This document shows positions 8,266-64,000 of a stretch of DNA of 64,000 nt, piece by piece. The first letter of the stretch is position 1. Each line of letters opens with the position of its first letter. Source of the stretch: Sulfurimonas sp. SAG-AH-194-L11 (GTDB lineage: Bacteria > Campylobacterota > Campylobacteria > Campylobacterales > Sulfurimonadaceae); contig NZ_JAEMVB010000006.1 of assembly GCF_029215995.1 (NCBI RefSeq), positions 1-64,000 on the forward strand, written 5' to 3'. The notes below the pieces were generated by a model. The model had not been told where the DNA came from, ran no database searches, and worked only from the letters and a program-made list of their open reading frames with translations. The position numbers were made by a program, and so were the translations under genes.

Positions 8266-10113
8266 ATGAATACAAATACAAATATGAGTTTTTACAAGTT
8301 TATGCATAAGCAGATTCTTGTCATCATCGCTTTAAATATCTCAACTGCTCCAGGGTATCTTTTCATGGGGTATCTCTACACCTCTATGGTATATGAGTCC
8401 ATTTGGATTATTTTTATGGTACTCATTGCTATTTATGGATACACCTTGTACACAAGTTATTCCAAAGAGATGACAATTGCTGCAAAAAATAGATGGCTAG
8501 ACAGGGTGAGGTTTTTTATGTTTTTATACTCTATCTCATGGAGTATAATGTTTGTATATTATGTAACATTTGATAATTTACAAATGCACTACATAACAAT
8601 TGCTACTGAACTTGGAAGTTCTGTGGTTGCAGCAACACTTTTAGCTTCTCAAAAAAAGCTTGTAACATTTACTGTTATCTTTTTAATGACTCCTCTTATT
8701 GTATACTTTAGTCTTATAGGGGAAACCTACTCTTATATACTTGCATTTTTCTCTGTTGTGCTTAGTGGAGTGATTCTGTATGCGGCTAAAAATACTAATG
8801 ATTACATCATAAAAAGCAACTATCAGGCATATCACGACCATTTAACTTCTTTGGGAAATCGAAGATATTTCTTAGAAATATTAGAGAGTTCTGTTCGAGA
8901 GTATAAAAATAAATATACCTATCTACTGCTTATTGATTTAGACTATTTCAAAACAATTAATGACACACTTGGACATGATATTGGTGATGAACTACTCCAA
9001 GCAGTTGCTTTGAGAATGAAAAATCTCTCTGAGTCTTATAACAATGAGGTCTCACGATTAGGTGGAGATGAGTTTTGTGTATTAAGTCAAAGCTTTCCTA
9101 CACAAGAAACTTGTCTTGAGAATGCACAACTATTCTCAGAAAAGTTACTAGAAGAAATTAAAAAAACTTATAATATAGCTGATAATCAACTCTATATAAG
9201 TGCAAGTATAGGCATTAGTCTCATTGATAATAGAGAAATCGATGCAAACGAATTTCTCAAAGAGGCTGATATGGCTATGTATGAGGCGAAAAATAGTGGT
9301 CGTGATGGAATCATTATTTTTAATGAACCACTGCGCAAACTCGTAAAAACGAAGTTAGATATAGAACGAATCATACACTTTGCAATACAAGAAGATGAAA
9401 TCACTCTTAATTATCAAGCACAAGTCAATGCAGATAAAAAAATTATTGGCTGTGAAGTGCTAGTAAGATGGCATAGTAATACCTTGGGTTTTGTAGGGCC
9501 GGATATCTTTATTCCTATTGCTGAGAATACAGGTTATATTATTGAACTAGGGACTTATATCTTAGAAGAGTCTCTTAAAACACTCCGAGAGTGGCAGAAA
9601 AAAGGTATTATTTTAGAGCAAATTTCTATTAATATCAGTATGCGACAACTCCATCATTTTGGCTTTGTTTCGCTTGTTGAAGAACTTGTCAAAAAGTATG
9701 TTGATGAGAACTCTACTACACAGATTATATTTGAGATTACAGAAACAAGTACAACAGAAGATATAACAGAACTTGTAAGGGTTATTGAAGCACTTAAAGC
9801 ATTTAAGATATCTTTTTCTATGGATGATTTTGGTACAGGCTACTCATCACTGAGTTATCTTCGTGAGATACCTATCAGTGAGCTAAAAATCGACAAATCA
9901 TTTATAGCAGCCTTAAAAAATCCACAACAGGCCTCTTTAGTAAAAACAATAGTGAGCATCGCTAAAAACTTAAACTTAACAATAGTTGCAGAGGGTGTTG
10001 AAGAGGAGTACCAAAGAGAATTTTTAAGAGAGATTGATTGTGATTTATATCAAGGGTATCTCTTTTTCAAACCTACAACAAAAGAGAAGTTTGAGCAATT
10101 ATTTGTAAGATAA
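8266..10113 (+). CDS. Membrane-anchored GGDEF/EAL c-di-GMP protein
   Basis: TM N-terminus; SRLGGDEF; EVLVRW, NISMRQL, MDDFGTGYSSL, AEGVEEE motifs. Confidence 0.93.
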   Translation: MNTNTNMSFYKFMHKQILVIIALNISTAPGYLFMGYLYTSMVYESIWIIFMVLIAIYGYTLYTSYSKEMTIAAKNRWLDRVRFFMFLYSISWSIMFVYYVTFDNLQMHYITIATELGSSVVAATLLASQKKLVTFTVIFLMTPLIVYFSLIGETYSYILAFFSVVLSGVILYAAKNTNDYIIKSNYQAYHDHLTSLGNRRYFLEILESSVREYKNKYTYLLLIDLDYFKTINDTLGHDIGDELLQAVALRMKNLSESYNNEVSRLGGDEFCVLSQSFPTQETCLENAQLFSEKLLEEIKKTYNIADNQLYISASIGISLIDNREIDANEFLKEADMAMYEAKNSGRDGIIIFNEPLRKLVKTKLDIERIIHFAIQEDEITLNYQAQVNADKKIIGCEVLVRWHSNTLGFVGPDIFIPIAENTGYIIELGTYILEESLKTLREWQKKGIILEQISINISMRQLHHFGFVSLVEELVKKYVDENSTTQIIFEITETSTTEDITELVRVIEALKAFKISFSMDDFGTGYSSLSYLREIPISELKIDKSFIAALKNPQQASLVKTIVSIAKNLNLTIVAEGVEEEYQREFLREIDCDLYQGYLFFKPTTKEKFEQLFVR

Positions 10114-10214
10114 TGCAATAATTGTTCCAACTTTTAAACTTTGGCCTATCTTCTTACATTACTTTCAGTTTAATCAGACTACAATAAGTAAAAATTAATT
10201 TGAAAAGTCAAACA

Positions 10215-10460
10215 ATGAGAATAGATAAATTTTTAAATTCGGTAAATATTACAAAGCGTCGTTCAGTTGCACAAGATATGCTTGCCAACAGAGTTGTAGA
10301 GATAAATGGTGTGCTTGTTAAACCGAGTAAGAATGTAGAGGTAGGAAATATCATTACTATAAACTATCTTGAGAGTTCTAAAAAGTATGAAGTTTTACAG
10401 CTTCCCACAACAAAATCAACACCAAAATCATTACAACATGAATACATAAAGGAGTTATAA
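10215..10460 (+). CDS. S4-domain RNA-binding protein
   Basis: MRIDKFLNSVNITKRRSVAQDMLANRVVEINGVLVKPSKNVEVGNIITI S4 domain; start moved to internal ATG. Confidence 0.8.
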   Translation: MRIDKFLNSVNITKRRSVAQDMLANRVVEINGVLVKPSKNVEVGNIITINYLESSKKYEVLQLPTTKSTPKSLQHEYIKEL

Positions 10461-11446
10461 TGACTTATGAAAGTACTAAAGAGGACTTTACTTCACTTTT
10501 TAAGCATGAGATGAGTGATGAAGTGATGCGAGAGTTTTTAGTTTCAATGACATTAGATAAAAACACTTCAGTAAACACTATCGCAGCCGCAGCAGAAGTG
10601 ATGAGAAGTTTTGCTATCCCTCTCCCTATACAAGAAGAGACAAGAGCAAGAGCGATAGATATTGTGGGAACAGGTGGAGATAAGATAGGCTCGTTTAACA
10701 TCTCTTCAACTGTAGCACTTTTAGTGGCTGCTTGTGGAGGAACTGTCGCTAAACATGGGAGTCGTTCTATCACTTCAAAGAGTGGGAGTGCAGATATGTT
10801 TGAAGCACTTGGTGTAAGACTTGATTTAAGTCTAAACAATAGTGCTAAACTTCTTGAGGAGACAGGGTTTACATTTATGTTTGCACAAAATCATCATCCT
10901 GCAATGAGATTTATAATGCCTGTTCGTAAAACAATTCCTGATAAGACAATTTTTAATATTTTAGGGCCACTCACAAATCCTGCGGGAGTTGAGAAGTCAA
11001 TGTTAGGTGTATTTGATAAGGCTTTCGTACCTAAGATGCTAGAAGCACTTAAAATTAATGGTGCTACATCAGCTATGGTTGTAAGCTCTCGTGAGGGAAT
11101 GGATGAGATAAGTATAAGTGACATTACCTATGCATCGCGTTTACATAATGGTGTCATACATGAGTTTGAGATAGATCCAGAATCTTGTATGATAAGAAAA
11201 ATGCCTATAAAAGCTATTGTGGGTGGTGATGCTCAAGAAAATGCGAATATTCTTCGTCATATATTTGATGGTACTTCTACTGAAGCACAGAGAGATATAG
11301 TACTTATAAACACAGCAGCTGCACTTATGGTGGATGGTCTTGCTCGTGATATGCAAGATGGTATGGATATGGGGCGAGAAGCTCTTAAAAACCATAGAGG
11401 TAAAAAGAAATTAAGACAAATAATAGAAGTGAGCAATAAATTATAA
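10460..11446 (+). CDS. trpD: Anthranilate phosphoribosyltransferase
   Basis: IDIVGTGGDKIGSFNISS, KHGSRSITSKSGSADMFEALG, NILGPLTNPAG. Confidence 0.95.
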   Translation: MTYESTKEDFTSLFKHEMSDEVMREFLVSMTLDKNTSVNTIAAAAEVMRSFAIPLPIQEETRARAIDIVGTGGDKIGSFNISSTVALLVAACGGTVAKHGSRSITSKSGSADMFEALGVRLDLSLNNSAKLLEETGFTFMFAQNHHPAMRFIMPVRKTIPDKTIFNILGPLTNPAGVEKSMLGVFDKAFVPKMLEALKINGATSAMVVSSREGMDEISISDITYASRLHNGVIHEFEIDPESCMIRKMPIKAIVGGDAQENANILRHIFDGTSTEAQRDIVLINTAAALMVDGLARDMQDGMDMGREALKNHRGKKKLRQIIEVSNKL

Positions 11447-11862
11447 TGAAACATATACTTAATGAAGATAGACTATTTCGATTAACAAGAGAACTCCTTA
11501 TAAATGTGAAAACTGGTGTGGTTATACTACAAGGTGATTTAGCAGCTGGAAAGACTACTCTTGTTAAGGCGGTTGTAAAAGCGATGGGTTTAGCAGACAT
11601 CGTTACTTCACCTACTTTTTCTCTACAACAGTGTTATGGTACAAGTGTGTATCATTACGACTTATATAACCATGGACTTGACCATTTTCTCTCGCTTGGA
11701 ATGCTTGAAGAGTTAGATAAATATGGCATACATTTTGTAGAGTGGGGTGATGATTCTCTTGTTGAACTCTTAAATAGCACAGGAATACCAACAACAGTTA
11801 TAAAAATAACTAAAGTTTCTGATGATGAAAGAGAGTATGAGGTTACATATGCACACACTTAA
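11446..11862 (+). CDS. tsaE: tRNA t6A biosynthesis ATPase TsaE
   Basis: LQGDLAAGKTTLVKAV, VTSPTFSLQQCY, HYDLY. Confidence 0.93.
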   Translation: MKHILNEDRLFRLTRELLINVKTGVVILQGDLAAGKTTLVKAVVKAMGLADIVTSPTFSLQQCYGTSVYHYDLYNHGLDHFLSLGMLEELDKYGIHFVEWGDDSLVELLNSTGIPTTVIKITKVSDDEREYEVTYAHT

Positions 11863-12571
11863 AGCTGTAAACCTCAAAAAAAAGATAAAAAGCCTTGAAA
11901 TAGTAAAGGGGATGAGTCTTGAGGTTTCTAGTGGTGAAGTTGTGGGACTGCTAGGACCAAATGGAGCAGGAAAGACAACTACTTTTTATATGATATGTGG
12001 ACTTGTAGAAGCGAGTGGAGGTGAAGTGTTTTTTGATGGAGAAAACCTCTCAAATATGCCTCTACACCAACGTGCAATTAAGGGGATAGGCTACCTACCA
12101 CAAGAGGCATCTATCTTTAAAGATCTTAGTGTAGAAGATAACCTTATGATAGCCGCACAAGTAGGTATAAAAGGAAAAGAGGCACAAGAAAAACGTATCT
12201 TAGAACTTCTTGATATGTTTAATATTGAGCCTATCCGTTATCGTAAAGGTATATCACTCTCAGGTGGAGAACGCCGTCGCGTTGAGATTGCAAGAGCACT
12301 TGTAAATGAGCCAAAATTTTTACTTCTTGATGAGCCTTTTGCAGGGGTTGACCCTATCGCTGTTATGGATATTCAAAAAGTTATAAAACAGCTTGTCTCT
12401 TACGACATAGGTGTGCTCATAACAGACCATAATGTTCGTGAGACCTTAGATGTTTGTGACAGGGCTTATGTTATTAAAGCAGGTGAGCTTTTAGCAGAGG
12501 GTACGAGTGATGAGATAGGAAAAAACGACGATGTTCGTAAACACTATCTTGGTGAAAACTTTAAGCTGTAG
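11849..12571 (+). CDS. lptB: LPS export ABC transporter ATP-binding protein LptB
   Basis: GLLGPNGAGKTTTFYMICGL, GIGYLPQEASIFKDLSVEDNL, LSGGERRRVEIARAL; start set to MHTLKAVNL. Confidence 0.93.
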   Translation: MHTLKAVNLKKKIKSLEIVKGMSLEVSSGEVVGLLGPNGAGKTTTFYMICGLVEASGGEVFFDGENLSNMPLHQRAIKGIGYLPQEASIFKDLSVEDNLMIAAQVGIKGKEAQEKRILELLDMFNIEPIRYRKGISLSGGERRRVEIARALVNEPKFLLLDEPFAGVDPIAVMDIQKVIKQLVSYDIGVLITDHNVRETLDVCDRAYVIKAGELLAEGTSDEIGKNDDVRKHYLGENFKL

Positions 12572-12586
12572 GAAATAGAGTAAATT

Positions 12587-13858
12587 ATGGGAGCATTAAG
12601 ACAAACGCAGTCAGTTGAGAACAAACATAAACTCTCAAACACACTACGTAATTGGCTCCCAATACTGCACTCCTCTTTGTCTGACTTAGGTGAGGCTATG
12701 GCTCCTTTTGTTGAAGCAAATCCTGTAGTGGAAGTTGAGTCAGGTTATGAAGAGGATTTTGAGGCTAAAATCCCTCGTAAAGTTATCTCAAGGGCTGTAA
12801 GTAACTCACGGACAGAGCAGATAGAAGCCCTAACAATTCAACACCGAACACTCTATGAAGTTTTAGATGAACAACTCGGTGCACCTCTATTTCCAACTCC
12901 TATTTCTCAAAATATAGCTCAGTATGTCATAGAAAACTTAGATGAACTCGGTTTTTATGAGGGTGATAGTGAGAGTTTTTGTCAAAAGAATGATATATCC
13001 TTAGAGGTGTTTGAAAAAACAAGGTTGCGTTTTGCTCATATTGAGCCTCTTGGTATTGGGGCTAAGGATTTAGCTGAGTGTTTTATCTTTCAACTTGATA
13101 GTGCAGAGATAAGTGATAGTGCTTACTCGCTTGGCGTTGAAGTGATTAACAATATGCAAGAGATTCATAGCTACTCGAAGGATAAAGACTTTGCTGAAGT
13201 TATGCATGTTCTAGGCAGTTTTAAAAACCCACCAAACATAGAGTATCAAGAAGAATCAGCACAAATAGTTCCAGACTTGATGATATACTTTAACGAAGAT
13301 GAGAACATAGAAGTAAAACTAAACGATGCCTATTATCCAACTATAAAAATAGATACAAACTATGCTGTTGAGCATGAGTTTATAAGTCAAAAGATAAAAG
13401 AGGCGAAATCTCTCGTAGATGCACTTGATATGCGTAAAGCTACACTCTATAAAGTAGGGCTGATGATAGTTGAGTATCAGTATGAATTCTTTACGGGTGG
13501 ACAAATTATGCCACTTACCCTTAAAACACTTGCAGATGAGTTTGGACATAACCCCTCAACTATCTCCAGAGCTATCGCTAACAAGTACATAGCTTGTGAC
13601 AGAGGAACGTTAGCCATGAAAGAGTTCTTTACGACTGCCATAGATGAGGATGTTAGTAATGCGGCTATAAAAGAGTTCCTTATCGGTCTTGTAAAGAGTG
13701 AGAGTAAAGAAAAACCTCTGAGTGATATGAAACTTCTTGCGCAAATTGAAGAGAGGTTTAAAGTCAAAATGGTGCGTCGTACCATCGCTAAGTATAGAAA
13801 ACAGCTCAATATTGCAGGTTCAAGTGAGCGCAAAAAACTCTATCAGCTTTCCGTTTAG
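12587..13858 (+). CDS. rpoN: RNA polymerase sigma-54 factor
   Basis: RpoN core and C-terminus (TLKTLADEFGHNPSTISRAIANKY; VRRTIAKYRKQLNIAGSSERKKL). Confidence 0.95.
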   Translation: MGALRQTQSVENKHKLSNTLRNWLPILHSSLSDLGEAMAPFVEANPVVEVESGYEEDFEAKIPRKVISRAVSNSRTEQIEALTIQHRTLYEVLDEQLGAPLFPTPISQNIAQYVIENLDELGFYEGDSESFCQKNDISLEVFEKTRLRFAHIEPLGIGAKDLAECFIFQLDSAEISDSAYSLGVEVINNMQEIHSYSKDKDFAEVMHVLGSFKNPPNIEYQEESAQIVPDLMIYFNEDENIEVKLNDAYYPTIKIDTNYAVEHEFISQKIKEAKSLVDALDMRKATLYKVGLMIVEYQYEFFTGGQIMPLTLKTLADEFGHNPSTISRAIANKYIACDRGTLAMKEFFTTAIDEDVSNAAIKEFLIGLVKSESKEKPLSDMKLLAQIEERFKVKMVRRTIAKYRKQLNIAGSSERKKLYQLSV

Positions 13859-61742: not shown

Positions 61743-61786
61743 TCAATTAAAAAAGATATATAAAGGTTTTTTTAGTACAATTTCGT

Positions 61787-62111
61787 AGGTACAAGGATAG
61801 TTACTTGGGAATCTCCCAAGAGGAAAGTCCGAGCTGCTGTAAGACAGTGTTCCATTTAACTAATGGCCGTAGTAATACGAGGGAAAGTGCAACAGAGATT
61901 AGACTTCTTATGTTTTTAACGTAAGTAAAGGTGAAAAGGTGTGTGTAAGAGACCACCAGTCTCTATAGTGATATAGAGAGCTTGTAAACCCAACATGGCA
62001 GCAAGAAACAGATGGTTAGCGTCTTACAATGCTATTGTTTCGCTAGAGGCACAACGTAAGGTGTGCAGTAGATTAATAACTATTACTACAAAACTCGGCT
62101 TATTTGTACCT
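61787..62111 (+). ncRNA. rnpB: RNase P RNA component
   Basis: P1 AGGTACAA/TTGTACCT pairing, GAGGAAAGTCCGAGCT (CR-I/P4), ACGAGGGAAAGTGCAACAGAGA, CAAACTCGGCTTA near 3' end. Confidence 0.95.
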
Positions 62112-62144
62112 CACATATTAATGTATAAACTCAAAATTTCTACA

Positions 62145-62194
62145 ACCTCTATCGATATCTTAAAAACTGTTGTTTTTAAGATATCGATAGAGGT
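62145..62194. repeat. 23-bp perfect inverted repeat with 4-nt loop
   Basis: ACCTCTATCGATATCTTAAAAAC-TGTT-GTTTTTAAGATATCGATAGAGGT. Confidence 0.97.
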
Positions 62195-62533
62195 ACTTCA
62201 AATGAAAAAATCAATAATATTTGTTTAGTGCATGTGCTACTCCACACATAGAACATACCCAAGACAATCTACTACAAATAACGATGAAATGATAAGGTAA
62301 TCATAATATATTTGCTGAGTATAACTACGAATTTATAGATGTTAAGGGTAATATCCACTTTTTTACACTTAAAACTAATACAGATACTGAATACTTGATA
62401 TTAGAAAATATGAAGTATTAAAGAATTAAAATGATTTACAGTTTAGACAAGAAACTCTTTCTTAAACTTTTAAGTGTACTTTCCTATGAAGAACTATATA
62501 CAAAGGTAGAATCTTTTAGACTTCTGTATGAGG

Positions 62534-63204
62534 TTTCTAAGCTACCTGTGCGGTAGTTTACTGAAGTATAGAGAATAGATTAAGGGGTGTAAATTTCTAA
62601 GCTACCTGTGCGGTAGTTTACTTTTTAATATATTTTTTACAATATCACCTCCTTTTCTAAGCTACCTGTGCGGTAGTTTACTTGGTTATACAATTTAGAA
62701 TCAAGCATTTGCATTTCTAAGCTACCTGTGCGGTAGTTTACCTTGTTGGAATTTTTAAATTTGGATGGATAATTTTCTAAGCTACCTGTGCGGTAGTTTA
62801 CCAGCACTTTATCAGTCTATTTTAAAAGGTACTTTTCTAAGCTACCTGTGCGGTAGTTTACCTGGAGTAATTGTTGACCTTGTCGGAGTTACTTTTCTAA
62901 GCTACCTGTGCGGTAGTTTACATATCTCCTCTACTGTGATTTTGTATCTTTGTTTTTCTAAGCTACCTGTGCGGTAGTTTACACTAGTATATATACTGCT
63001 AAAAACCATGCAGTTTTCTAAGCTACCTGTGCGGTAGTTTACATTTAGATGATAAATATAAGTTAGAATATTTATTTCTAAGCTACCTGTGCGGTAGTTT
63101 ACTTTTAAATGAGAATACAATCCCATCTTTTATGTTTCTAAGCTACCTGTGCGGTAGTTTACTTAAAAATGCAAACTCACATATTTCTTTATATTTTCTA
63201 AGCT
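62534..63204 (-). CRISPR. Type I-F CRISPR array: 11 identical full repeats, 11 spacers (ten of 32 nt, one of 33 nt), and a 10-nt truncated repeat at the leader-proximal end
   Basis: + strand unit TTTCTAAGCTACCTGTGCGGTAGTTTAC at 62534, 62594, 62654, 62714, 62774, 62834, 62894, 62955, 63015, 63075, 63135; partial TTTCTAAGCT at 63195-63204. Reverse complement GTAAACTACCGCACAGGTAGCTTAGAAA matches I-F architecture (5-bp stem, 5-nt loop, CTTAGAAA handle). Confidence 0.98.
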
Positions 63205-63663
63205 TTAAAATTTTTGGATAACAACTTTAATGGCACTAATTATTTAAATAATAAGGGTTTAGTCGTGCCATCTACTCTATATTGTTCAAGCTTATACATT
63301 CAATATAACAGATTGTTAAACAAATATGACATGAGTTCTGTTCTTACTAAATCTGGAACAATTAGTGGAATATCCAAACGGATATTTACAAAAAAAGATT
63401 TCATGAATCGATTTACAACAGGAGACAAGAAGAAAATATTTGGAAATCCATATATAAAAAAAGAGTTCATAAAAGGTGAAGGGCAGGTTACATCTACTTT
63501 ACAAAAAGCAAATGGAACACTAGATATAACCTTAGATATACCTCGAGAAAAGGCAAAAGAGCTAAAGAGACTTATTGAAAATGCTGGTGTCTCAAGTTTT
63601 TACATAGGTAAAAAGGGGTTGGCTTATGTAACAAATATAGATCCGAGGGAGGTTCAAAAGTGA
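63205..63663 (+). pseudogene. cas5fv: C-terminal part of Cas5fv (type I-F2/I-Fv), N-terminal half missing
   Basis: [38 protein letters not shown]...[49 protein letters not shown]...[20 protein letters not shown] matches the recalled C-terminal half of Shewanella putrefaciens Cas5fv; in-frame TAA at 63199 within the truncated repeat; no SD-supported ATG. Confidence 0.85.
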
Positions 63664-64000
63664 ATTACTTTATTGATATAAAATTAATGTCATCAAAAGA
63701 GATACAAGAAAATATATTGCTTAACCAACTTTATACTAATTTTCACAAACGATTGTATGATTTAAAAGCTGATAATATAGGAGTTAGTTTTCCAAGATAT
63801 AAATTGAAATTAGGTGATGTATTTCGTATTCATGGAGAACAAAAAGACTTAGAATGTTTGCAAAAGCAAAATTGGTTGGGAGAACTTTCTAAATTTTGTT
63901 TAGTAAATATAATTACAGAAATTCCAAATAATACACAGTATAGAATAGTTTCAAGAGTACAAACAACGATGTCACAGTCTAAACTTAGAAGACTAATTAA
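63660..64000 (+). CDS. cas6f: Cas6f/Csy4 CRISPR endoribonuclease (3' end beyond window)
   Basis: GTG start overlapping cas5fv stop (GTGA); hand translation [113 protein letters not shown] with Csy4 hallmarks (YIDIKL, IGVSFP, LG..FRIHG, RVQ...SKLRR). Confidence 0.93.

Follow-up and report, generated by a model that had tools for sequence, protein, structure and literature searches.

Decayed CRISPR-Cas loci are common. Intact type I-F2 (I-Fv) operons are found in three genomes of the genus studied here (G072, G053 and G033), as well as in other Campylobacterota and in Pseudomonadota. In the I-Fv Cascade, the crRNA is bound at its 5' tag by Cas5fv, which also recognises the PAM through an N-terminal linker, Q113 and helix 6 of its helical domain (PMC6546366). 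In Vibrio cholerae TM 11079-80, cas3 of the I-Fv locus is interrupted by a transposase (PMC6360697). The locus described here (Table 1) lies near the end of a 64,000-nt stretch (the window) taken from an 88-kb contig of Sulfurimonas sp. SAG-AH-194-L11, and is very probably the dead remnant of a type I-F2 locus, left by a microhomology-mediated rearrangement.

Table 1. Features of the locus and its left flank, in window coordinates
Feature	Position	Strand	Remarks
rnpB (RNase P RNA)	61786-62116	plus	left neighbour; same place in empty-site relatives
Left edge of insert	62494-62533		40 nt between end of empty-site homology and last repeat
CRISPR array	62534-63162	minus	11 identical 28-nt type I-F repeats; spacers 32 nt, one 33 nt
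Spacer 3	62682-62713	minus	agrees with the host ssb gene (contig C5, 49464-49495) at 28 of 32 nt
Partial leader-proximal repeat TTTCTAAGCT	63195-63204	minus	last 10 nt present; first 18 nt and leader missing
3' part of cas5fv	63205-63663 (stop codon included)	plus	second half of helical domain and C-terminal domain
cas6f (csy4)	63660-64211 (runs past window end at 64000)	plus	complete, 183 aa

The truncated cas5fv gene and its junction with the repeat

The frame that opens at 63205 (152 codons, stop-free through 63660) matches PF20158 (Cas5fv_helical; model positions 83-158 of 158, E = 3.8e-28), the PADLOC Cas5fv model (positions 188-327 of 328, E = 3.4e-62) and the S. putrefaciens protein (PDB 5o6u chain F, 336 residues; residues 190-334, E = 1.3e-55). 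These matches uphold both the type I-F2 identity and the alignment with the middle of the Shewanella protein that the initial annotation had given. The gene is clearly a cas5fv, of which only the second half is present. Since residue 1 of the query aligns to residue 190 of the chain, Cas5fv homology reaches the breakpoint, as had also been proposed; the loss of the first half of the gene stands as well, with the number of missing codons refined from about 200 to about 187-189. Upstream in the same frame there is a TAA stop within the repeat (63199-63201), so that the first usable start is a TTG at 63214, and the edge of cas5fv has neither a start codon nor a ribosome-binding site of its own. 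A natural full-length family of about 150 aa was rejected: Cas5fv of the intact relatives is 338-339 aa long, and the PADLOC Cas5f model (214 positions) was also entered only at position 69. No cas8f lies between the array and cas6f, and a search of viral contigs for relatives of Cas5fv found none. A longer, divergent Cas5fv was seen in another genome (G077; L040, 769-1947), with a frame of 396 aa that is 34% identical to the Cas5fv of G053 and an ordinary Cas6f adjoining it.

The Cas6f endoribonuclease gene starts with a GTG that overlaps the cas5fv stop. Its product matches the S. putrefaciens chain (E = 3.5e-49) and keeps His29, which has a catalytic role in Csy4.

On the other side of the breakpoint, the leader-proximal repeat stops after its last 10 nt, in agreement with the initial annotation, and cas5fv sequence follows where a leader would stand in an I-F2 locus. 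The GCT at 63202-63204 is repeat sequence and also equals a conserved alanine codon of cas5fv: of 21 relatives, 17 have an Ala codon at the position adjoining the breakpoint, in many cases GCT, and the bases preceding it are often AA or AG; the sister G072 has GTT (Val) at this place. Because GCT is common to the repeat and the Ala codon, the joint may lie anywhere within about 63200-63204. The two parental sequences therefore probably overlapped by 3-5 nt, to judge from the relatives, and an overlap of this size suggests microhomology-mediated joining.

Array, spacers and genome-wide searches

The array consists of 11 exact copies of TTTCTAAGCTACCTGTGCGGTAGTTTAC with a period of 60 (one of 61), read on the minus strand as the 28-nt type I-F repeat GTAAACTACCGCACAGGTAGCTTAGAAA. 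It holds 11 spacers, including one that precedes the partial repeat; repeat length and spacers of about 32 nt are those of an I-F2 locus. All 11 repeats are matched by Rfam CRISPR-DR4 on the minus strand, opposite to the cas genes (63205-64211, plus), which bears out the orientation first reported. This is the genome's single array of this repeat, whose sequence occurs nowhere else. The missing 18-nt repeat half, sought genome-wide, was found inside the array only, and no reciprocal joint was seen.

The absence of cas1, cas2-3, cas7fv and the leader, claimed from the window, holds for the genome as assembled, a draft of 1.81 Mb in 72 contigs that is 79% complete. Neither Cas1 and Cas7fv of the G053 locus nor Cas2-3 of G072 found a match of the I-F2 kind in it, so that the draft offers neither the Cas7fv backbone gene nor cas1 with the fused cas2-3; the Cas2-3 query did find its targets in G072 and G053. 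Genes missing from such a draft might simply have escaped assembly, and their absence is a weak argument; more weight falls on the contiguity of the locus.

The one Cas1-family gene of the genome lies on contig 7, separate from the I-F2 remnant. There, at 8511-13153 (L132), a gene for a 980-aa Cas9-like protein stands together with cas1, a cas2-like gene and a short array. These make up an apparently complete type II-C CRISPR-Cas locus, its genes having been identified by eye from their translations and with the Cas1 model. Use of the I-F array by this second system was considered and rejected, as a type II-C-like (cas9) locus takes guides of another kind.

Spacer 3 matches the chromosomal ssb gene, which has the ribosomal protein S6 and S18 genes on either side: the first 20 nt are identical, four mismatches fall at positions 21-25, and the flank reads TA where CC (PAM) is expected. 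Across 62 kb of the array's own contig, the closest spacer match has at least 10 mismatches. It is likelier that the true target of spacer 3 is the ssb of a mobile element. One may speculate that a self-match to the essential ssb helped to select for loss of the I-F2 locus, but with TA instead of CC and four mismatches, self-targeting as the cause is a suggestion only. Phage protospacers for the array gave no credible match, and viral contigs searched with free sixth positions for spacers 3, 6, 10 and 11 gave nothing. The stronger plasmid matches were discarded; they fall in repetitive, unannotated places with I-F-like repeats, which are probably other arrays.

Chromosomal site and possible histories

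On the chromosome, the remnant is flanked by rnpB and a response-regulator gene, in a neighbourhood (TetR gene, rnpB, response-regulator gene, tRNA, gltX) that is common to its relatives. In two of these (G010 and G003), with TetR proteins 91-92% identical to that of the window, the site is empty: collinearity extends up to 62493 and resumes at about 64283, no more than about 72 nt past the end of cas6f, so that the segment from 62494 to about 64282 stands in place of about 140 bp. The collinear flanks mark the remnant as an insert with both outer edges genuine, and the I-F2 locus was probably gained horizontally. Downstream of cas6f, neither an array nor a trace of one was found, nor any leader relic when compared with the leaders of G072 and G053.

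Two further elements were seen. At the right edge of the insert, just past the end of the window (64244-64272; L013, 4245-4273), lies a perfect sigma-70 promoter (TTGACA, 17 nt, TATAAT), of which 80 kb of the contig hold no second example; it points to a small ORF and the response-regulator gene. Just 3' of rnpB, a long hairpin at 62136-62203 (32-nt arms, 88% complementary, 4-nt loop) is also present in G010.

Arrays are hard to assemble and this draft is fragmented, so the joint might be a chimera of assembly or amplification, with the true locus intact. We consider this unlikely. The genuine flanks, both inside one 88-kb contig, make a chimera of unrelated contigs very unlikely and leave only an artefact inside the insert conceivable; the sequence shared at the joint (3-10 nt) is presumably too short for an assembler overlap. 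Furthermore, a single inverted chimera of the usual layout predicts a leader after cas6f, where there is none, and none of the other contigs carries the cas1, cas2-3 or cas7fv of the locus.

On the most likely reading, an I-F2 locus once stood between rnpB and the response-regulator gene, and a rearrangement fused the interior of its leader-proximal repeat to mid-cas5fv via the microhomology, with loss of the leader, cas1, cas2-3, cas7fv and the 5' half of cas5fv. These parts are missing from the assembly; the mechanism is suggested by the 3-5 nt overlap.

The closest comparison is the I-F2 locus of G072 (L037). In a tree of the Cas5fv end and Cas6f, the window is sister to G072 (support 100/98), and the two loci share an identical 28-nt repeat and 73% identity in the Cas5fv end and Cas6f. 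Unlike the remnant, the G072 locus has a complete operon, different chromosomal neighbours, and an array that lies downstream of cas6f and is co-directional with it. The same arrangement is found in all Campylobacterota relatives with a visible array.

This bears on the proposal that a single deletion in an ancestor with a divergent array produced the present layout. With one array upstream of cas1 and none after cas6f, a deletion from repeat 1 to the middle of cas5fv would be enough, and it fits the flanks and the orientation exactly; that part of the proposal stands. The empty-site flank so close to cas6f and the want of any array trace there are consistent with it, and in L025 (Mariprofundaceae) a divergent repeat and leader-like sequence do occur upstream of cas1. 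However, the layout of G072 and the other Campylobacterota speaks against such an ancestor, which must itself have switched layout, and the L025 arrangement, seen in no other locus, consists of a single repeat where a contig ends, in a locus that falls among those of Pseudomonadota in the tree. We hold the single deletion tentatively, at somewhat short of an even chance.

Alternatively, the ancestor may have had its array downstream of cas6f and its operon on the minus strand. An inversion with its ends in repeat 1 and cas5fv would have turned around the leader, cas6f and the cas5fv end, and a deletion, in a second step or within the same template-switching event, would have removed the leader, the cas5fv start, cas7fv, cas2-3 and cas1. 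This route takes as its starting point the layout seen in the sister and all of the closest relatives, and it yields exactly an array on the minus strand followed by the cas5fv end and cas6f on the plus strand. It requires two breakpoint pairs, however, and the reciprocal repeat half, being absent from the genome, must also have been deleted; we regard it as distinctly possible, if on the doubtful side. The two routes are comparable options, the two-step route fitting about as well as the single deletion.

Age, function and relation to described systems

The loss of the upstream genes was probably recent when set against the divergence from the sister locus. The window's branch is 0.16 long, against 0.28 for the intact G072 in the same tree, and the changes on it in the cas5fv part fall on codon positions 1, 2 and 3 in the proportion 8/7/30, as is typical of a constrained gene. 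All 11 repeats are perfect, both frames are open and evolution has not accelerated. Together with the constraint pattern, the lack of acceleration implies that the gene was functional along most of the branch. Alternatively, this lack may reflect continued use of the remnant, although continued selection is not needed to explain it.

Such use would have to lie outside defence. Without cas1 and a leader the remnant would acquire no spacers, without cas7fv and with half a cas5fv it would assemble no Cascade, and without cas2-3 it would not cut; Q113 and the N-terminal part of Cas5fv fall in the missing half. Judged by the established functions of these genes, both interference and adaptation would be lost. 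Given a chance promoter, Cas6f could at most trim array transcripts.

That selection keeps the remnant because Cas6f and the array, with or without the Cas5fv end, make small RNAs for another role is very unlikely. An intact Cas6f with its His29 and open frames that have not evolved faster would be expected under such a role, but recency accounts for the intact frames equally well. Moreover, the leader is gone, translation signals (start codon, ribosome-binding site) are lacking where the cas5fv part begins, and promoter-like sites at the locus are no commoner than in shuffled sequence. A crRNA-processing unit of array and Cas6f, perhaps joined by a short protein from the Cas5fv end, retained for a non-defence role is a most improbable reading.

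We therefore return to the dead remnant, which offers a well-resolved snapshot of CRISPR loss: the sister is intact, close relatives have the site empty, and the breakpoint is placed at the nucleotide level. It also carries a warning for annotators: an array with cas6f should not count as a working system. In comparison with the type I-F2 (I-Fv) system of S. putrefaciens CN-32 (PDB 5o6u, 5o7h, 9g44), the remnant shares the I-F repeat and 32-nt spacers and is homologous over its whole present length in the C-terminal half of Cas5fv and in Cas6f, but it is without cas1, cas2-3, cas7fv, the first 189 residues of Cas5fv and the leader. Like the I-Fv locus of V. cholerae TM 11079-80, it has a broken effector gene in an I-F2 locus, although the gene there is interrupted by a transposase and here is truncated by fusion to the middle of a repeat. 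The remnant looks like ordinary genetic decay of a known type of locus rather than a new kind of system.
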